The notes below the pieces were generated by a model. It worked only from the letters and a program-made list of their open reading frames with translations, searched no databases and had not been told where the DNA came from. A program made the translations under genes and the position numbers. A stretch of 15,270 nt of DNA from an uncultured bacterium (GTDB taxonomy: Bacteria > Planctomycetota > UBA1135 > GCA-002686595), in contig CADEGS010000097.1 of NCBI GenBank assembly GCA_902826945.1, forward strand, positions 1 through 15,270, given 5' to 3'. This document shows, one piece after another, positions 5,117-15,270 of this stretch (position 1 is the first letter of the stretch; every line of letters begins with the position of its first letter).

Positions 5117-5542
5117 ATGGCCAGCTACAACAAAGTGATCTTGATGGGCAACCTGACGCGCGACCCCGAGGTGCGCTACGCGCCCAGCGGCGCCGCGATC
5201 GTCAAGTTCGGCCTGGCCGTGAACCGCCGCTTCCAGGACGCCGAGGGCAACTGGCAGGAGGAGCCGACGTTCGTGGACATCACGATGTTCGGCAAGCGCG
5301 GCGAGGCCTTCGCGCGCTTCCACACCAAGGGCAAGCCGGCCTTCCTGGAGGGCTCGCTGCGCCTCGACACGTGGGAGGACAAGAACGGCGGCGGGAAGCG
5401 CAGCAAGCTCTACGTCGTGGCGGAGAACTGGGAGTTCGTCGGCCCCGGCAAGGAGGGCGGCGGCGGCGGCGGTGGCGGCGGGAGCGGCGGCGCGAGCCGC
5501 TCGTACGAGCCGGCGGGGGAGCTGGACGAGACGCCGTTCTAG
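5117..5542 (+). CDS. ssb: Single-stranded DNA-binding protein
   Basis: SSB coats single-stranded DNA during replication, recombination and repair and recruits partner proteins through its C-terminal tip. The 141-residue protein starts MASYNKVILMGNLTRDPEVRY, the classic first strand of the OB fold, and continues with VKFGLAVNRRF and the TFVDITMFGKRGE segment. After residue 112 comes a glycine-rich linker with nine consecutive Gly. It ends DETPF, a version of the acidic DDDIPF partner-binding tip. The ATG at 5117 is preceded by GAGCGAGGA. It is a single gene with its own predicted promoter and is not next to rpsF or rpsR. It converges on the radical SAM gene across two strong hairpins. Confidence 0.98.
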   Translation: MASYNKVILMGNLTRDPEVRYAPSGAAIVKFGLAVNRRFQDAEGNWQEEPTFVDITMFGKRGEAFARFHTKGKPAFLEGSLRLDTWEDKNGGGKRSKLYVVAENWEFVGPGKEGGGGGGGGGSGGASRSYEPAGELDETPF

Positions 5543-5598
5543 AGGAGACGGGAGGGAGCTCGGGCAGGCCTGCGGCGCCACGGCGCTCGCGCGCCGGC

Positions 5599-5641
5599 CG
5601 CGGCCATGCGGCCGCGTCGAGGGCCGCGGCGCGCGGCCCTC
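5599..5641. terminator. Paired GC-rich hairpins between convergent ssb and radical SAM genes
   Basis: Two perfect inverted repeats lie back to back. CGCGGCC (5599-5605) pairs with GGCCGCG (5610-5616) around ATGC. GAGGGCCGCG (5619-5628) pairs with CGCGGCCCTC (5632-5641) around three bases. There is no T-run on either side, so these would be stem-only, bidirectional terminators or mRNA-end stabilisers. The right arm of the second stem overlaps the stop codon of the minus-strand radical SAM gene (5640-5642). Confidence 0.6.
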
Positions 5642-6626
5642 AGCACGTCCTGCAGCGGTCCGGCAGGTCGCCCGACATCAAGCGACGGCGGAAGGCGCGG
5701 TAGGGCTCGCCGTTCCAGATCGCGGCGCCGTCCTGCTCGAAGGCGTTGCCGAGCTTGATCTCGCGGCTGTCGTAGTAGTTGCAGCAGGGCGTCACGTCGC
5801 CCTCGACCGTGACGTAGCTCATCTGCTGCGGCCAGTAGCAGTTCACGCGCTCCGCGTGCGTCCACGAGCCGTACGACCACACCACGCGCACCTTGCCGCG
5901 GTAGGGGGGCAGCGAGCGGATCCACGCGCGCTCCTCGTCGCCGAGCTGCAGCTCGGCCAGCGCGTCGTTCGAGCTCGCGTTGAGCTTGGTGAACATGATC
6001 GTCTCGACGCCGAGCTCCTCCGCGATGGCGAGCATGCGCGGCACCTGCTGCAGATTGGCCTTGCTGAGCACGGTCATGATGCCGACCGTCGGCGTCTTCG
6101 AGCCCAGCGCGGCCTTGGCCTCGAGCAGGTTCGTGACGCAGCGCTTGTAGCGCTTGAGCGTGCCGCCCTTGCGCAGGCGACGGAAGGTCGCCTCGTCGGC
6201 GCCGTCCATCGAGAAGTTCACGAGGTCCAGGCCCGCGCGCACGATCTCGAAGGCCGTGCCGCGCTCGATCTTGGAGGCGTTCGAGAACGTGTGCACGCTC
6301 AGGCCGCGCGCGGAGGCCTCGCGGACCAGCTCGATCACGCAGGGGTTCAAGAACACCTCGCCCAGGCCCTGGAGCTCGAGCTTCTTGACCGTCGGGTAGG
6401 CGTCGAGCACGCGCCGGAACTGCTCCAGCGTCATTTGCTTCTCGGGCCGGTCGTACTCGGCCATCGAGAGCGGGCAGGAGTCGCAGCGGAAGTTGCAGAT
6501 CGAGGAGGTCTCTATCTGCAGCGCCGACACCGGCTGGGGGTTGTAGCCGGTGCGCTGGGCCTCCAGCCAGTCGGGGGAGCGCATGTCGGCGGCGGGGTGC
6601 GAGCCGCCCGGTTCGGCGTTGACCAT
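5640..6626 (-). CDS. Radical SAM protein with abbreviated SPASM-like C-terminus
   Basis: The 328-residue protein carries the radical SAM CxxxCxxC cluster motif as C44-NFR-C48-DS-C51, followed by strands typical of the partial TIM barrel (LELQGLGEVFLNP, VHTFSNASKI, LVNFSMDGADEATF). The C-terminal part resembles a SPASM auxiliary-cluster domain: NCYWPQQMSYVTVEGDVTPCC, then LGNAF, IWNGEPYRAFRRRL and a final DRCRTC. Family members modify peptides or proteins, or act on small molecules. No precursor peptide or partner gene is visible nearby, so the substrate is unknown. The chain ends exactly at the last Cys, whereas related proteins usually run on for several residues. The start chosen is ATG 6626. 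A GTG at 6665 would overlap the predicted promoter. Confidence 0.9.
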   Translation of the reverse strand: MVNAEPGGSHPAADMRSPDWLEAQRTGYNPQPVSALQIETSSICNFRCDSCPLSMAEYDRPEKQMTLEQFRRVLDAYPTVKKLELQGLGEVFLNPCVIELVREASARGLSVHTFSNASKIERGTAFEIVRAGLDLVNFSMDGADEATFRRLRKGGTLKRYKRCVTNLLEAKAALGSKTPTVGIMTVLSKANLQQVPRMLAIAEELGVETIMFTKLNASSNDALAELQLGDEERAWIRSLPPYRGKVRVVWSYGSWTHAERVNCYWPQQMSYVTVEGDVTPCCNYYDSREIKLGNAFEQDGAAIWNGEPYRAFRRRLMSGDLPDRCRTC

Positions 6627-6655
6627 GGTGCTGGATCGGCGGGGAAAGGCCGGCG

Positions 6656-6664
6656 AGTGTAGCA
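6656..6664 (-). promoter_or_regulatory. Predicted extended -10 promoter for the radical SAM gene
   Basis: On the minus strand this reads TGCTACACT, an extended -10 (TGn) joined to TACACT, about 30 bases upstream of ATG 6626. No convincing -35 was found, as is usual for extended -10 promoters. It shares GCTANNNT with the other promoters of the window. Confidence 0.42.
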
Positions 6665-6706
6665 CGCGCGGCTCACAGGTCCGGCCGCCTCGCGCGCAGA
6701 CCGCGC

Positions 6707-6735
6707 TTGCCAGCGAGCGCGCGGCCCGCTGGGAT
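6707..6735 (+). promoter_or_regulatory. Predicted promoter for the moaD-moaE fusion gene
   Basis: TTGCCA (6707-6712) and TGGGAT (6730-6735) have 17-base spacing. The -35 matches consensus at five of six positions and the -10 is weak. The start would fall near 6742, which favours ATG 6764 over the in-frame upstream start at 6707. It lies divergently from the radical SAM promoter. Confidence 0.42.
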
Positions 6736-6763
6736 GGGGTCCGCCCCGCGGGGCCCTCCCGCC

Positions 6764-7486
6764 ATGCGCGTCGTCGTCCGCCTCTTCGCCGGCCTGCGCG
6801 AGCGCGCCGGCACCGAGCGTCTGGTCGTCCTGGACCTGCCCGAGCCGCTCGACGTCGCGCGCCTGCGCGCGATCGTCGCCGAGCGCTGGCCCGAGCTCGG
6901 CGGCCTGGAGGGCGTGCGCGGCGTCGTGGGCACGCGCTGGGTGGCCGACGACACGCCGCTCGAGGACGGCGCGGAGGTGAGCCTGCTGCCGCCGGTTTCC
7001 GGCGGCAGCGGCCGCGACGAGGCGCTGGCGCGCGGCGTGTTCGAGGTGCGCGCGGAGCCGCTCGACCCGCTCGAGGTCCAGCGCCGCCTCGCGCACCCCT
7101 CGTGCGGCGCGATCGTGCTCTTCACCGGCACGACGCGCGCGACGAGCCGCGGGCGCGCGGTCGAGCGGCTCGACTACGAGGCCTTCGCCGCCATGGCCGG
7201 CGCCGAGATGGAGCGCGTCTTCGCCGAGTGCCGCGCCGCGCACGGGCCGCCCGCGGCCCCCGCGGGCGACGACCCCGCGCAGCACGAGCTCGCGATGCTC
7301 GTCCTGCACCGCACGGGCACCGTCGGCGTCGGCGAGCCTTCGGTGGTGATCGGCGTCGCCAGCCCGCACCGCGACGCGGCCTTCCGCGCCTGCCGCTTCC
7401 TCATCGACGAGCTCAAGGCGCGCGTGCCGCTGTGGAAGAAGGAGGTCTACGGCGACGGCCATGCGTGGATCGGCGAGCGCTCGTAG
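6764..7486 (+). CDS. moaD/moaE: Single-chain MoaD-MoaE fusion (molybdopterin synthase)
   Basis: Molybdopterin synthase inserts two sulfurs into cPMP to make molybdopterin. Normally MoaD carries the sulfur as a C-terminal Gly-Gly thiocarboxylate and MoaE is the catalytic subunit. Here both sit in one 240-residue chain. Residues 1-81 are a ubiquitin-like MoaD (MRVVVRLFAGLRERAG to VSLLPPVSGG), with the Gly-Gly pair at 80-81. MoaE follows from about 90, with GAIVLFTGTTR (115-125), LDYEAF, HRTGTVGVGE and LKARVPLWKKE. Lys218 and Lys225 correspond by spacing to the essential lysines of E. coli MoaE. A Pro/Ala-rich insert lies at about 161-174. The Gly-Gly is internal, so it would need proteolytic release, as reported for the mycobacterial fusion MoaX. 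No other molybdenum cofactor gene is in the window. Confidence 0.95.
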   Translation: MRVVVRLFAGLRERAGTERLVVLDLPEPLDVARLRAIVAERWPELGGLEGVRGVVGTRWVADDTPLEDGAEVSLLPPVSGGSGRDEALARGVFEVRAEPLDPLEVQRRLAHPSCGAIVLFTGTTRATSRGRAVERLDYEAFAAMAGAEMERVFAECRAAHGPPAAPAGDDPAQHELAMLVLHRTGTVGVGEPSVVIGVASPHRDAAFRACRFLIDELKARVPLWKKEVYGDGHAWIGERS

Positions 7487-9305: not shown

Positions 9306-10772
9306 ATGAAGGTCACGCTGCACGACGCGCGCAGGGCGCTGCCGAGGAGCGAGCTCCTGTGCGTCCTGGCGCCGGAGGCGAAGAGCGTCGCGCTGCCCGC
9401 GGGCGTCGAGCTCTCCGCCTCCGCCCGGGCCGACTTCCGCGGCGAGTTCCGGCAGACGCGCTGGACCGACGCGCCCGCCGGGCCGGCTCGCCGCGTGCTG
9501 CTCGTCGGGCTGGGGAAGGCCGGGGCGCTGGACGCGGAGAAGCTGCGGCGCGCGGCGGCGATCGCGGTGAAGCAGGCCGAGGCGATGAAGGTCCCCGCGG
9601 CCGCGCTGTGGCTCGCGGCGGAGACCGAGCGCGCCGCCGGCGGCGCCGAGGCGGCCGGGCGCGCGCTGGCCGAGGGCGCGTGCATGGGCAGCTACGCGCT
9701 GACGCGTTTCAAGAAGAAGCCGGCGGAGCGCGCGCTCGCGCGCGTGCTCCTGTGCGGCGGCGGGGCGGCCTTCGCGCGCGGGGCGCGCGAGGGCGAGGTG
9801 CTGGCGCAGGCCAACCTCCTCGCGCGCGAGCTGCAGGACGCGCCCGCGAACCGCATGCGCCCGCGCGACCTGGCCGCCGCGGCGCGCAAGGTGGCGGCGC
9901 GCAGCCCGCGCATCGCCTGCCGCGTGCTGGGCGAGCCGGAGATGCGGAAGCTCGGCATGGGCTCGCTGCTGTCGGTGTCGCGCGGCTCGGCCGAGCCGGC
10001 CTGCCTGATCCACCTGACGCACCGGCCGAAGGGTCGCTCGCGCGGGCGCGTCGCGGTCGTCGGCAAGGGCCTGACGTTCGACGCCGGCGGCATCAGCCTC
10101 AAGCCGGCGGCGAAGATGGAGGAGATGAAGTACGACATGTCGGGCGGCGCGGCCGTGATCGGCCTGTTCCACGCGCTGGCGCGGCTCGACCTGCCCCTCG
10201 AGGTGCACGGGCTGGTGCCGGCGGCCGAGAACCTGCCCGACGGCAAGGCCAACAAGCCCGGCGACGTCGTCGTCGCGATGGACGGCACGACGATCGAGGT
10301 GCTGAACACGGACGCCGAGGGGCGCCTGGTGCTGTGCGACGCGCTGGCGTACGCCGTCCGGCGCATCGAGCCCGACACGATCGTCGACCTGGCGACCCTG
10401 ACCGGCGCGGTGATCATCGCGCTCGGGCACGAGCTCAGCGGCGTGATGGGCAACGACGAGGCGCTGCAGCAGGCGCTGATCGCCTCGGGCAAGGCGGTGG
10501 GCGAGCTGGTCTGGCCGCTGCCGCTGCTCGACTGCCACAAGGAGCAGATGAAGGGCAGCGTGGCGGACCTGCGCAACATCAACGCCGGGCAGGGCAACGG
10601 CTCGAGCGCCGGCGCGGCCTTCCTGTCCGGCTTCGTCGGCGACGTGCCGTGGGCCCACCTCGACATCGCGGGGACGGCCTGGGGCGCGCTGGAGCGCGAC
10701 TGGGTCGGCGGCGGCGGCGGCACCGGCGTCGGCGTGCGCCTGCTCGTCCACTACCTCCAGAGCCGCGCCTGA
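9306..10772 (+). CDS. pepA: Leucyl aminopeptidase, M17 family
   Basis: M17 aminopeptidases are hexameric two-metal enzymes that remove N-terminal residues from peptides in the cytoplasm. Some also bind DNA. The 488-residue protein has the variable N-terminal domain followed by the catalytic core. Metal and active-site motifs are GKGLTFDAGGISLKP, MKYDMSGGAAVIG, the signature NTDAEGRL from Asn334, and DLATLTGA. The end, WAHLDIAGTAWG to GGTGVGVRLLVHYL, is also typical. The ATG at 9306 follows GTGAGGCGC, a modest ribosome binding site overlapping the end of the preceding gene. The link to the quinone oxidoreductase is probably organisational rather than biochemical. Confidence 0.97.
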   Translation: MKVTLHDARRALPRSELLCVLAPEAKSVALPAGVELSASARADFRGEFRQTRWTDAPAGPARRVLLVGLGKAGALDAEKLRRAAAIAVKQAEAMKVPAAALWLAAETERAAGGAEAAGRALAEGACMGSYALTRFKKKPAERALARVLLCGGGAAFARGAREGEVLAQANLLARELQDAPANRMRPRDLAAAARKVAARSPRIACRVLGEPEMRKLGMGSLLSVSRGSAEPACLIHLTHRPKGRSRGRVAVVGKGLTFDAGGISLKPAAKMEEMKYDMSGGAAVIGLFHALARLDLPLEVHGLVPAAENLPDGKANKPGDVVVAMDGTTIEVLNTDAEGRLVLCDALAYAVRRIEPDTIVDLATLTGAVIIALGHELSGVMGNDEALQQALIASGKAVGELVWPLPLLDCHKEQMKGSVADLRNINAGQGNGSSAGAAFLSGFVGDVPWAHLDIAGTAWGALERDWVGGGGGTGVGVRLLVHYLQSRA

Positions 10773-10851
10773 GCCTCGCGCGGCGGATTCCCGCCGGGCT
10801 CGTGCAACCCTCGGGGACCGCCGCGCCACCCAGGGAGCGGAGGAAAGCCCC

Positions 10852-11382
10852 ATGCCGCCGCGCCCGATCGCGTTCCTGACCCCGCTCCTCGTCCTGGTCC
10901 CGCTGCTCGAGCGCTCCCCGCGCGGGGAGGAAGGAGCCGCGCCGCCGCCGGCGCGCGTCGCCTTCGAGCGGCTCAAGGCGCTCGAGGGGGACTGGAGCGG
11001 CGCGAGCACGCTGGGCTGGAAGGACGAGGTGCGCTTCGACGTCATCGCCGGCGGCTCGGTCGTGATGGAGACCTCGCGCTTCGAGGCGCACCCGGGCCAG
11101 ACGATGGTCACGATGTTCCACCTCGACGGCGAGCGCTTGCTCTTGACGCACTACTGCGTGGCCGGCAACCAGCCGCGCCTGGTCGCGACCGAGATCGCCC
11201 CCGACGGGCGGCGGCTCGCCTTCGGCTTCCTCGACGCGACGGGGATCGCCTCGCGCGAGCAGGGGCACATGGACGCCGTCCTGCTGCGCCTGGAGGACGG
11301 GGTCGTGGAATCGCGCTGGAGCTGGTACGAGGACGGCCGCTCGCGCCCGATGGAGGAGATCCGCCTGGAGCGTCGGCCGTGA
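10852..11382 (+). CDS. Exported lipocalin/DUF1579-like protein of unknown function
   Basis: The 176-residue protein opens with a hydrophobic segment (about residues 6-19), so it is probably exported, though no clean cleavage site or lipobox is evident. The mature part starts with FERLKALEGDWSG and alternates strands: VRFDVIAGGSVVMETSRF, then MVTMFHLDGERLLLTHYCVAGNQPRL, and a final SRWSWYEDGR. This 'G.W.G ... GGsvv.E ... MvtmyhlDg..L.lTHYC.aGNQPR' pattern recurs in exported beta-barrel proteins of the lipocalin-like/DUF1579 kind. That placement is from memory of the pattern and the ligand is unknown. The start is well supported by GGAGGAAAG (10839-10847). A possible weak -10, AACCCT preceded by TGC, lies at 10806. 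It precedes the ECF sigma gene by 75 bases and might belong to the same unit. Confidence 0.82.
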   Translation: MPPRPIAFLTPLLVLVPLLERSPRGEEGAAPPPARVAFERLKALEGDWSGASTLGWKDEVRFDVIAGGSVVMETSRFEAHPGQTMVTMFHLDGERLLLTHYCVAGNQPRLVATEIAPDGRRLAFGFLDATGIASREQGHMDAVLLRLEDGVVESRWSWYEDGRSRPMEEIRLERRP

Positions 11383-11457: not shown

Positions 11458-11997
11458 GTGCAGCGCTTCCTCGCGCGGCGGGACGAGGACAGCTTCCTCG
11501 CGCTCTACCGCCGGCACGCGGACGCGCTCTACCGCGTCCTCGCACGCGTGCTCGGCGGCGCGGACGTCGACGACGCCTTCCAGGAGACCTGGCGCCGCTC
11601 GGTCGATCGCCTGGCGAGCTTCGGCGGGGGCTCGCGCCTGCGCACGTGGCTGTGCGGCGTCGCGCTGAACTGCGCGCGTGAGGCGCTGCGCGCGCGCGGC
11701 GCCGGCCCGGGCTGGGAGGTCGTGGAGCTCGACGAGCTGGGTGCGCCGGACGCGGTCGTGCCGCTCTCCGAGGAGCGCGAGGCGCTCGAGGGAGCGCTGG
11801 CGCGGCTCGCGCCCGGCTACCGCGCGGTGCTCGTGCTGCACGACGTCGAGGAGCTGACGCACGCGGAGATCGCGCGCGTGCTCGGCATCCGCTCGGGCAC
11901 GTCGAAGAGCCAGCTCGCGCGCGCGCGAGCGGCCGTGCGGCGCGCGCTCGCCGACGCGCGCGAGGAGCCCGTGCGGCGGGCAGGAGGAACGGCATGA
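11458..11997 (+). CDS. ECF-type RNA polymerase sigma factor
   Basis: The 179-residue protein has the two-domain layout of extracytoplasmic-function sigma factors, which redirect RNA polymerase to stress or envelope promoters. Region 2 spans about residues 10-80 (DSFLALYRRHADALYRVL, then DAFQETWRRS at 39-48 and LRTWLCGVALN at 61-71). Region 4 spans about 108-163, with the helix-turn-helix EELTHAEIARVLGIRSG followed by TSKSQLARARAAVRRAL. There is no C-terminal extension of the ECF41 or ECF42 type. The start is GTG 11458, since no ATG exists in frame after the previous stop, and GGAGGAG (11442-11448) is correctly spaced. Its TGA overlaps the ATG of the next gene by four bases (ATGA), so the two are translationally coupled. 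Confidence 0.93.
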   Translation: MQRFLARRDEDSFLALYRRHADALYRVLARVLGGADVDDAFQETWRRSVDRLASFGGGSRLRTWLCGVALNCAREALRARGAGPGWEVVELDELGAPDAVVPLSEEREALEGALARLAPGYRAVLVLHDVEELTHAEIARVLGIRSGTSKSQLARARAAVRRALADAREEPVRRAGGTA

Positions 11998-12602
11998 AGA
12001 GCGACGACACGGCGGGGGACGCCTCCCGCGACGAGCTGGAGCCGGAGCCGCTCACCGCGGCGGAGCGCGCGCGCTGGCGCGCGCTGCGCGAGGGGCCGCG
12101 GCCGCCCCCGGCGCTCGAGCGTGCGCTCGTGCGCGAGCTGCGCGCGCGCGGCGCGCTCGCGCCGGCGCGGGCGCCGCGCCTGCGCCGGCTGGCGGGCCTC
12201 GCGGCCGCGGGGCTCCTCGGGCTGGTCGCGGGCCTCGCCTGGCGCGCCGCGCCCGGCGCGGAGCATGCCGACGACGGACGGCGCTACCTGCTGCTCGTGC
12301 GCCGCGATCCGGCCGCCCCGGAGCTCGACGCGGACGAGACGGCGCGGCGCGTGGCGGAGTACGGGCGCTGGGCGCGCTCGCTGGGCGCGCGCCTCGCAGA
12401 CGGCGCGCACCTCGCCGACGAGCGGCTCCTGCTGCACCGTGGAGACGACGGCGCCGTGGAGGTCGAGGCCGCGCCTCCCGACGCGCTGGGCGGTTTCTTC
12501 CTGCTGCGCGCGCCCGCGTCGAGCGCGGCGATCGCGCTCGCCAGGACCTGTCCGCATCTGGCCCACGGAGGTCTCCTGGAGCTGCGGCCGCTCGACGGCT
12601 AG
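11994..12602 (+). CDS. Membrane-anchored YCII/DGPF-like domain protein, putative anti-sigma partner
   Basis: The 202-residue protein sits in the anti-sigma position, overlapping the ECF gene by four bases, with a strong AGGAGGAA ribosome binding site. Residues 1-60 are charged and helical and presumably cytoplasmic, but lack the zinc anti-sigma HxxxCxxC motif. A single transmembrane segment (about 66-83) follows RLRR, predicting N-in topology. Residues 97-200 then read like a YCII/DGPF domain: RRYLLLVRRDPAAPE, AEYGRWARSLGARL, LGGFFLLRAP (165-174), ALARTCPH and a closing GGLLELRPL. The DGPF tetrapeptide usual just before the LGGF strand is missing and replaced by a short AAPPDA link. YCII proteins are normally soluble and cytoplasmic, so a membrane-tethered outer domain would be unusual. 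Anti-sigma function is inferred from position only. Confidence 0.85.
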   Translation: MKSDDTAGDASRDELEPEPLTAAERARWRALREGPRPPPALERALVRELRARGALAPARAPRLRRLAGLAAAGLLGLVAGLAWRAAPGAEHADDGRRYLLLVRRDPAAPELDADETARRVAEYGRWARSLGARLADGAHLADERLLLHRGDDGAVEVEAAPPDALGGFFLLRAPASSAAIALARTCPHLAHGGLLELRPLDG

Positions 12603-12644: not shown

Positions 12645-12674
12645 ATGGGGGAGGCACGGACCGGTCCATGGCCC

Positions 12675-12703
12675 TTGACCAGGAAGACGCAATTGATGAT
12701 ATT
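12675..12703 (+). promoter_or_regulatory. Strong predicted promoter for the first secreted protein gene
   Basis: TTGACC (12675-12680, five of six matches) and GATATT (12698-12703, four of six) are 17 bases apart in a locally AT-rich patch, which is unusual here. The predicted start near 12710 gives a leader of about 33 bases before ATG 12743. It rules out an in-frame ATG at 12668, which would lie upstream of the transcript. Confidence 0.65.
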
Positions 12704-12742
12704 GGGGGCCGTGCCAGCGGCCCGCGAGACGGGCCGCCTCCC

Positions 12743-13798
12743 ATGCGTCCGCCCCCCACATCGATCGCCGCCGCGCTCGCGGCGACGCTCCTCGCCTCCC
12801 TCGGCCATGCGAACGAGTACCGGCCGGGCAGCGTGCTCGTGTTCCCCGTGCAGCGCTCGGGTCTCGACCTGGGCGGCTGTCCGTCGAGCTGCTTCTGGAC
12901 GATCGTGTCGGTCACGAACGTCAACACGTTGCCGGCGACGCCTTCCAGCCTGGGCGGATCGACGAACGTCAAGTTCGAGTACCTGAACACGATCCGCGAC
13001 CCCGCGCGTCCGCTGCAGCCCGCGCACTGCTTCGTGAACGACGTGGTCGAGTTCCTCACGCCCGCGGACACGTTCAGCGTGCTGACGAGCTGCCACAACG
13101 CCTCGCACGAGGCCGGCTACGTCGTCGTGCACGCGCAGGATCCGTCGCTGTTCGACACGGCCTGGTCGTGGGACTACTTGATCGGCTCGGAGATGATGCT
13201 CACCGCCACGGGCGGGATGTTCTTCCTGAACGCGATCCCGTTCAGCTCGCCCCTGCCCGACCGCGCGCCGACGGACCTCGACGGCGACCGCCAGCTCGAC
13301 TTCGACGGCGCCGAGTACCAGGGCGCGCCCGACCTGCTCTTCGTCGACTCGTTCATCGCGCCGCTCAACGCGTCCTTGGCCCTGATCAACCTGACCGGCG
13401 GCGTGGACTTCGTCGCGACGGCGAAGTTCGACGTGTGGAACGACAACGAGTTCGCGTTCTCGACCACGGTGACGTTCCGCTGCTGGTTCAACGAGCCGCT
13501 GGTGCGCATCAGCCCGATCTTCACCCAGGGGTACCTGCTCGCGAACACGCCGAACGACATCTCCGAGCTCGACGTGAACTGCGATGGGCGGGGCGAGCTC
13601 GAGACCGGCTGGCTGCGCATCGACGGCCTGGTGGCGACCTCGACGGCGGAGACGATCCAGGACCCGGCCTTCCTCGGCGCGCTGACCGCCGGCCCGGACA
13701 ACGTGTTCGACACCGGCAGCATGCTCTGGGAGAGCGAGGGGAAGCAGCTCAACGGGGACTTCGTGAAGTTCGGGGTCGATGATCGTGAGCATCCCTGA
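12743..13798 (+). CDS. Secreted protein with calcium-type DxDxDG loops, paralogue 1 (complete)
   Basis: The 351-residue protein has a signal peptide (MRPPPTSIAAALAATLLASLGHA, probable cleavage before NEY) and a predominantly beta mature part. Landmarks are PGSVLVFPVQ (28-37), FWTIVSVTNVN (51-61), GGSTNVKFEYLNT (71-83), HCFVNDVVEFLTPADT (95-110), CHNAS (117-121) and AWSWDYLIGSEM (140-151). DLDGDRQLDFDG (178-189) looks like a calcium-binding EF-hand or thrombospondin type 3 loop, and LDVNCDGRGE (276-285) resembles a second, dockerin-like one. Six Cys lie in the mature part, consistent with export and disulfides. The function is unknown; I associate this style of protein with Planctomycetota but cannot verify it. 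The end shows no PEP-CTERM or other sorting signal. A close paralogue follows at 14562. Confidence 0.88.
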   Translation: MRPPPTSIAAALAATLLASLGHANEYRPGSVLVFPVQRSGLDLGGCPSSCFWTIVSVTNVNTLPATPSSLGGSTNVKFEYLNTIRDPARPLQPAHCFVNDVVEFLTPADTFSVLTSCHNASHEAGYVVVHAQDPSLFDTAWSWDYLIGSEMMLTATGGMFFLNAIPFSSPLPDRAPTDLDGDRQLDFDGAEYQGAPDLLFVDSFIAPLNASLALINLTGGVDFVATAKFDVWNDNEFAFSTTVTFRCWFNEPLVRISPIFTQGYLLANTPNDISELDVNCDGRGELETGWLRIDGLVATSTAETIQDPAFLGALTAGPDNVFDTGSMLWESEGKQLNGDFVKFGVDDREHP

Positions 13799-14314: not shown

Positions 14315-14561
14315 CCGAAGCTCCTCTCGAACGGAGCTCCGACCGCGCACCCTACGCGGTCTCGCGGAGCGCGCGCGGCCTCTGAGGCCCGGCAACTCCG
14401 GGAGCATTCGAGACAGGAGCACCCTCCCGATGGAGGAGGTTCCCGCCCCGACGGGCCCGCGTGCTGCGCTGCGCGAGCGACGCGACCCGCGACCCTGAAG
14501 GGCAAACATCTGCAGATTCGCTAGTCACCCAAACCGCACCATGCACAGGAGAGGCGACACC

Positions 14562-15270
14562 ATGAGAGTGCTCGCAGTCATTTCGGCGGCGGCTGCCGCC
14601 ACGGCGGCTTTCGCCCCGACGAGCTTCGCTGACGGGCGCAACCCCGGCAGCGTCCTCGTCTACCCGGTCCAGTACTCCGGAGAGCAGGAGATCGCGACGG
14701 AAGGCAACTACTTCTGGACGATCACCTGCGTCACGAACTCCAACCTGACGCCGGCGACCCCCTTCAGCTTCGGCGGCTCCACGAACGTGCAGTTCGACTA
14801 CGTCAACACGCTTCGTGACCGGCTGTTCCCCCTGAAGCCCCTGCACTGCTTCGTCAACGACGTGGTCGAGTTCCTGAGCCCGGCCGACACGCTGTGCGTG
14901 CTGACCAACTGCCACAACGCCTCGAGCGAAGCCGGCTACCTGGTCGTGCACGCCCAAGATCCGGCCAAGTTCAAGACCGCCTGGTCGTGGGACTACCTGC
15001 TGGGCTCCGAGATGGTCGTGACCGCCACCGGCGGCATGTACTCCATCAACGCGATCCCCTTCACGTCCCCGCTGGCCGACGCGGCCGAGACGGACCTGGA
15101 CGGTGACGGCCAGCTGGACTTCGACGGCTCGGAGTACGAGGGCGTGCCCGACGTGCTCTTCATCGACAGCTTCCTGGCGGTCGCCGGCTCGTCCCTCGCC
15201 CTGATCAACCTGACGGGCGGCGTGGACTTCGTGGCCACGACCAAGTTCGACATCTGGAACGACAACGAGT
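14562..15270 (+). CDS. Secreted protein with calcium-type DxDxDG loop, paralogue 2 (3' end outside window)
   Basis: The 236 visible residues begin with a signal peptide (MRVLAVISAAAAATAAFAPTSFA, cleavage probably before DGRN). They align almost without gaps to paralogue 1: NPGSVLVYPVQ, YFWTITCVTNSN, GGSTNVQFDYVNT, HCFVNDVVEFLSPADT, CHNASSEAGYLVVHAQDP, AWSWDYLLGSEM, TDLDGDGQLDFDG and ALINLTGGVDFVAT are shared nearly verbatim. The calcium-type loop is closer to consensus here (DGDGQ rather than DGDRQ). The two differ most in the signal peptide and in the short segment after PVQ, where paralogue 1 has GGCPSSC and this copy has EIATEGNY. The ATG is preceded by AGGAGAGG (14547-14554), the best ribosome binding site of the pair, suggesting high expression. 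Function unknown. Confidence 0.88.
   Translation, partial: MRVLAVISAAAAATAAFAPTSFADGRNPGSVLVYPVQYSGEQEIATEGNYFWTITCVTNSNLTPATPFSFGGSTNVQFDYVNTLRDRLFPLKPLHCFVNDVVEFLSPADTLCVLTNCHNASSEAGYLVVHAQDPAKFKTAWSWDYLLGSEMVVTATGGMYSINAIPFTSPLADAAETDLDGDGQLDFDGSEYEGVPDVLFIDSFLAVAGSSLALINLTGGVDFVATTKFDIWNDNE

Follow-up and report, generated by a model that had tools for sequence, protein, structure and literature searches.

Organization of the Locus

The stretch of DNA that we analyzed (the window: the full 15,270 nt of contig CADEGS010000097.1, forward strand, from an uncultured planctomycete) contains a putative three-gene operon, whose second and third genes encode a sigma factor of the extracytoplasmic-function (ECF) type and a membrane protein with a YCII-fold domain, which protein we propose as a candidate anti-sigma factor. 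Its three genes lie on the plus strand. A leucyl aminopeptidase gene (9306–10772; Peptidase_M17) precedes the operon and is followed by a predicted ECF promoter (10804–10832), composed of a −35-like GCAACC (10804–10809), 17 bases, and a −10-like CACCCA (10827–10832). The first gene (10852–11382) encodes a calycin barrel protein of 176 amino acids that reads as exported, its signal peptide having been judged by eye; the second (11458–11997) encodes the sigma factor; and the third (11994–12602) the membrane protein of 202 amino acids. The last two genes overlap by ATGA, as a preliminary description of this DNA had stated and as the sequence confirms.

The sigma factor possesses the sigma2 and sigma4 domains of the ECF factors, with Pfam scores of 40.6 bits for Sigma70_r2 and 61.8 bits for Sigma70_r4_2—both over the cut-offs—and an NCBIfam score of 76 bits for TIGR02937 (sigma70-ECF; cut-off, 42.9). 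The protein stops 20 residues past region 4 and so does not carry the long C-terminal extension, with tetratricopeptide repeats (TPR), of the ECF42 group. Two long sigma factors used as controls (L001 and L049) both contained DUF6596, and one of them also gave weak TPR matches, as expected for ECF42.

The Membrane-Anchored YCII Protein

The preliminary description had read residues 97–200 of the membrane protein as a YCII domain, an assignment upheld by both the profile and the fold similarity, which place residues 96–200 (12279–12593) in the YCII superfamily (PF03795). The window protein alone scored 18.6 and 20.0 bits against the Pfam YCII model, under the gathering score of 24, which 3 of 8 relatives passed; and a 24-row profile matched the soluble YCII protein PA1349 (1s7i) at 2e-11. 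The fold comparison was made against the pdb_via library, absence from which is uninformative. The domain carries a TCPHL..GG..ELR sequence, without the DGP[FY] motif.

Ahead of the domain, a single transmembrane (TM) segment was likewise borne out at residues 65–84 (12186–12245; hydropathy, 1.62), where the structure model places a helix at low confidence, with five K or R residues before it and three after. The N-terminus contains two predicted helices (residues 22–33 and 39–51), which we propose as the sigma-binding segment (residues 22–51; 12057–12146); the predicted local distance difference test (pLDDT) values of the model had block means of 87–92 over residues 21–50. The class I anti-sigma domain (ASDI), by comparison, consists of a three-helix bundle plus a fourth helix. 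The zinc anti-sigma motif Hx3Cx2C is indeed missing from the window protein, as had been noted; according to the part of the source available, that motif is optional within the ASDI class (PMC7406223). With its one TM segment, its N-terminus inside, and its coupled gene, the protein displays—as far as predictions go—the features of membrane-type anti-sigma factors.

Survey of Related Loci

A protein search with the window membrane protein returned nine proteins, the query included, at E ≤ 0.01, and a profile search 31 at E ≤ 0.001, about 8000 candidates being scored in both. Six relatives (P0005, P0007, P0008, P0021, P0028, and P0029) carried a precomputed zf-HC2 zinc anti-sigma domain, and in all three of those that we scanned that domain was above the cut-off and ahead of the same TM-YCII arrangement; the anti-sigma reading is therefore more than positional. 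Another relative, P0023 (407 amino acids; precomputed sigma region 2 plus YCII), was rejected as a fusion and read as a frame-shifted pair of neighboring genes, in which the sigma pattern is lost after region 2 and a zinc-type anti-sigma N-terminus and the YCII domain follow.

Profile matches were found in 29 of 396 genomes sampled from the phylum of an Acidobacteria metagenome-assembled genome (MAG), in 26 of 392 from that of a Planctomycetota MAG, in 52 of 395 from that of a Gemmatimonadaceae MAG, and in 14 of 195 from that of a Corallococcus genome (G004). In these phylum searches and the later ones only 7, 8, 14, or 18 candidates per genome were scored, depending on the search, and up to 30 places per search were examined (in one, 30 of 59). 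An earlier scan with a nine-row alignment had yielded 19 loci, mostly with soluble YCII proteins. The examined loci plus the window gave 112 non-redundant matches, which we classed by the position of the sigma gene, so that upstream or downstream within a class is a definition and not a finding: 38 were anchored, with a short sigma (tail, 0–14 residues) just upstream; 53 were soluble, with a long ECF42-type sigma (tail, 200–289 residues) just downstream; and 21 fitted neither class. The start codons of the anchored proteins were taken as those nearest the sigma stop. A membrane YCII protein behind a short sigma factor thus recurs at 38 loci, the window included. The anchored loci came from the Acidobacteria, Planctomycetota, and Gemmatimonadaceae samples, the G004 sample giving the soluble class or duplicates.

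The hydropathy reached at least 1.3 in 35 of the 38 anchored proteins versus none of the 53 soluble ones, in agreement with the position-based split. Five of the 21 remaining matches also reached that value: L071 was cut by a contig end, the L002 match was an exported YCII protein, and at L084, L088, and L090 no sigma factor was found at the locus. The charge bias placed the N-terminus inside in 35 of the 38 anchored proteins and was reversed in none, in agreement with the earlier proposal of a YCII domain outside the membrane; these predictions make an extracytoplasmic location the most likely one. The DGP[FYV] motif of the DGPF subfamily was found in none of the 38 anchored proteins—the window's among them—versus 49 of the 53 soluble ones, a loss that argues for an altered YCII pocket in the anchored type. 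The Hx3Cx2C motif was present in five of the 38 anchored proteins, and a loose P..L[E..] motif occurred in the N-terminus of 28 of the 33 zinc-free ones.

We later searched 154 genomes belonging to the same class as G756, a genome from the Planctomycetota MAG sample; 20 of them had matches, and two more anchored loci emerged. L250 had the gene order of the window. At L251 (G1414) the YCII anti-sigma candidate had a longer N-terminus, class I-like by eye and without the zinc motif, with the exported partner family adjoining; that N-terminus is perhaps a further anti-sigma type. The G756 genome also encodes the ETF-QO closest to that of the window among 16 genomes compared (75 percent), and its locus L069 contains a zinc-type YCII anti-sigma factor together with the same exported partner family as the window's.

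Phylogeny of the Sigma Factors

In a quick sigma tree a single branch (SH-aLRT, 100) separated the 53 ECF42-type factors from the 38 anchored-type ones, so that the window sigma lies outside ECF42 both by its tail length and by its position. A more careful tree comprised 63 sequences: 38 anchored-type factors, 21 paralogues from eight genomes, and four ECF42-type factors (L201, of which 18 percent was filled, was omitted from this tree, and L185 gave no sigma match). There, all 33 zinc-free anchored-type sigmas, that of the window included, formed one clade with support of 99/99; the five zinc-type sigmas stood at two other places; and a single clade of all 38 was rejected (p-AU, 0.005). Since the zinc types belong to other sigma lineages, the YCII domain was probably joined to anti-sigma factors more than once; indeed, three or more events seem to have occurred in which the TM-YCII unit either acquired a different anti-sigma N-terminus or passed from one sigma lineage to another. 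The tree of the YCII domain itself, too short to decide and poorly resolved, placed the zinc-type domains among the soluble ones. In seven of eight genomes, the sigma factor most similar to that of the window was the one beside the anchored YCII protein, the exception being G1136, a zinc-type genome.

The slot occupied by the membrane YCII gene was compared with that at 23 paralogous sigma loci: 17 had, no more than 30 bases downstream of the sigma gene, a gene for a TM protein (hydropathy ≥ 1.4) whose N-terminus was either short or of the zinc kind and whose outer part differed, which constitutes the usual anti-sigma arrangement. The initial suggestion that the gene stands where an anti-sigma factor belongs is accordingly sustained by the tight coupling and by the anti-sigma-like genes in the same slot of paralogous ECF factors.

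Putatively Exported Partner Proteins

Partner proteins that read as exported were encoded at 28 of the 38 anchored loci versus none of the 53 ECF42 loci, most of which cover 1.5 kb per side, so that the absence there is local. We used only open reading frame (ORF) families confirmed by iterated profile search, the all-against-all families having held many wrong-frame ORFs. In the partner encoded in the window (10852–11382) and the proteins of alignment A5, the residues T-H-Y-C and G-H-M-D (His100 and His139) are invariant; they lie in a nitrobindin-like barrel, and this site might bind haem or a metal. Tet_JBP and HutF_N were rejected as families for the exported protein, both being weak Pfam matches under the cut-off. 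Glyoxalase-domain proteins adjoin some of the anchored loci. At L002 (Acidobacteria MAG RBC046; 5233–6345) the order was exported YCII, sigma, membrane YCII, with the motif described below upstream; the second YCII protein of this locus, directly before the sigma, bears an apparent signal peptide.

A Promoter-Like Motif

The upstream regions of the anchored loci have in common the motif GCAACC[C/T]T-N15-CAC(TCA), which we spotted by eye in these same loci, so that the counts that follow are post hoc. A first scan, which covered another region of 39 loci (153 kb in all), yielded 30 matches (shuffled mean, 3.45; maximum, 7), and a first scan of the 53 ECF42 loci gave seven in 294 kb, about the shuffled density. 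After L170 (soluble class) was dropped, along with L154, L167, and L168, which had too little upstream DNA, the motif was found on the sigma strand in 25 of 36 loci at a spacing of 17 (shuffled mean, 0.74; maximum, 3) and on the other strand in two; with the spacing widened to 16–17, upon inspection of L166 and L250, the former count was 27 of 36 (shuffled mean, 1.0; maximum, 6). These 27 were among the 31 zinc-free loci; none of the five zinc-type loci had the motif on the sigma strand, L149 having a match on the other. We therefore take the motif to go with the sigma clade. At L142 and L164 the sites ran in both directions, and the partner gene of L164 is divergent.

In the window, the sole match to GCAACCNTN15CACYCA on both strands at up to two mismatches was the site at 10804–10832, with none, which lies past the aminopeptidase stop codon and ahead of the gene for the exported protein; 43 of 200 shuffles contained a match at up to two mismatches. 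Within 26 whole genomes, the exact GCAACCNTN15CACTCA occurred 17 times in 14 genomes, 12 of the 17 at an anchored locus; the reversed pattern occurred once. Two of the five remaining sites read as within genes, and three (L239, L241, and L246) ended 6–9 bases ahead of the earliest possible start codon of exported-looking genes, where they might give leaderless transcripts. The genes behind these three encode a DUF1579 protein (E, 1e-34), a protein with a weak alpha/beta-hydrolase match under the cut-off, and one without a family. The motif is thus associated with the anchored loci; that it depends on the sigma factor we infer, and the simplest reading of these distributions would be that the three-gene operon is autoregulated and the regulon very small.

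Other Genes of the Window

Behind the operon, where a sigma-70-like site occurs at 12675, exported-looking paralogues stand in a row at 12668–13798 and 14541–15270 (78 percent over 300 nt), the latter running off the end; the product of 12668–13798 matched no Pfam or NCBIfam family. An apparent MoaD-MoaE fusion was noted by eye at 6707–7486, with both molybdopterin synthase subunits in a single ORF, and a radical SAM protein with a SPASM domain is encoded on the minus strand at 5640–6665.

Discussion

The whole is best explained, and quite probably so, by an ECF sigma factor paired with a transmembrane anti-sigma factor whose sensor is an extracytoplasmic YCII domain. The earlier suggestion of a sensor and anti-sigma factor built on the YCII fold is thus favored by the fold, the TM segment, the predicted topology, the slot, and the difference from ECF42, all of which are readings of sequence. 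In such a circuit the two cytoplasmic helices would, at rest, hold the sigma factor at the membrane; the outer YCII domain might be the target of either a small molecule or the exported barrel; and the sigma factor would then be released via a conformational change or proteolysis, to transcribe from GCAACC-N17-CACTCA-like sites its own operon—exported partner, sigma, and anti-sigma—as well as, in certain species, genes for a few further exported proteins. The motif and the exported neighbors together suggest a small, self-contained sensing circuit.

Several observations weigh against that interpretation. The zinc-free N-terminus had no Pfam match and does not reach the length of the class I anti-sigma fold; the TM helix of the window protein was modeled at low confidence; three of the 38 anchored proteins fell under a hydropathy of 1.3, with L120 lacking any TM segment; and the YCII-domain tree recovered neither the zinc-free anchored nor the soluble domains as one clade, the window's domain lying on the soluble side. 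Ten of the 38 loci had neither exported family, three of these being cut by contig ends, and distant members of the window's partner family occur elsewhere (none of 20 at such loci, versus 8 of 10 close members). Furthermore, the sigma strand lacked the motif in 9 of the 36 loci, the other strand carried one in 5 of the 36, and 12 of the 26 genomes had no exact match.

We considered as the foremost alternative that the membrane YCII protein acts as an enzyme or binds a ligand and is merely co-expressed with a sigma factor controlled only via its own transcription. The Pfam search detected no anti-sigma domain in the zinc-free type, and the YCII relatives include the enzymes ClcF and TftG; but the relatives with a zinc anti-sigma domain ahead of the same TM-YCII unit, the tight coupling in the slot of the anti-sigma-like genes of paralogous ECF factors, and the conserved short N-terminus with its two predicted helices make this explanation unlikely. 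That the anchored protein instead recruits or activates the sigma factor we judge very improbable: the ECF42 YCII partners are thought to take part in regulation, with the sign unstated in the part of the source available (PMC8999054), but the sigma factor here has no extension for such a contact, and the zinc-type relatives carry an anti-sigma-type domain. A cytoplasmic YCII domain sensing an internal signal, as might be imagined from the ECF42-type partners without a TM segment (none of 53 at hydropathy 1.3) and from the modest charge bias of the window protein, is equally hard to reconcile with the N-in bias across the anchored class and with the exported-looking genes at the locus, a YCII gene in L002 among them.

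The pair with an extracytoplasmic YCII sensor resembles the class I anti-sigma factors of the RsiW, RskA, and RseA type in its N-terminal domain, TM segment, outer C-terminal part, and sigma-coupled gene, as well as in the zinc motif of some YCII relatives; it differs in that the window type has two predicted helices, and no three-helix bundle, and in that its outer domain is YCII. To our knowledge, the class II anti-sigma factor CnrY has no YCII domain. Its likeness to the window protein is one of helix count alone, two in CnrY and two predicted here; and since two helices suffice in CnrY to cover both sigma domains, as the available part of the source describes (PMC7406223), the two-helix N-terminus could in principle be enough to bind the sigma factor. 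In the ECF56 pair SigG1-RsfG, RsfG binds the sigma directly, whereas the present partner, apparently an exported protein, would have no access to it.

The YCII proteins described beside sigma factors, in the portions of the sources available, are the soluble partner of ECF42 and a YCII-ECF fusion in Caulobacter (PMC8999054, PMC6180224). The latter, Q9A8M4_CAUVC, also links YCII to ECF control, the domain there being fused to the sigma itself (PMC8999054). The ECF42 system resembles the present one in having a YCII-fold protein encoded beside an ECF sigma, and the glyoxalase-like genes that respond to RpoE10 in S. meliloti (PMC6180224, in the part available) recall the glyoxalase-domain proteins beside some anchored loci; here, in contrast, the sigma is short, first in order, and of another clade, and the YCII protein is membrane-anchored and without the DGP motif. 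None of the titles listed in our literature searches (20 of 21 and 20 of 55 entries in two of them) concerned a YCII anti-sigma factor, although PMC5493296, PMC12604733, PMC4275268, and PMC6016940 contain terms from both fields; for the promoter-like motif, one paper was listed, on Streptomyces sigma E (PMC6767563). The pair may belong to an existing ECF group; its novelty is plausible, not proven.

On balance we incline to a broader proposal, namely, that transmembrane anti-sigma factors bearing an extracytoplasmic YCII sensor make up a class of their own, as yet undescribed, which arose on at least three occasions (one two-helix and two zinc types). Via GCAACC-N17-CACTCA, this class would control the operon that encodes it, together with a small number of exported proteins (barrel, glyoxalase-like, or other), and the exported protein may form part of the sensor. 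The anchored pair would then be the membrane counterpart of the soluble YCII/ECF42 pairing, arising by the repeated joining of YCII to anti-sigma N-termini.

The very short zinc-free N-terminus and the sigma/promoter pair may serve as tools, and the compact operon with its candidate promoter allows the role of the YCII proteins beside ECF sigma factors to be tested. The presence of the same fold in the sensor position of an anti-sigma factor points to YCII as a module with a regulatory role in sigma circuits, perhaps the sensing of ligands; and the system, if this proposal is true, would be the outward-facing counterpart of the YCII/ECF42 circuit.
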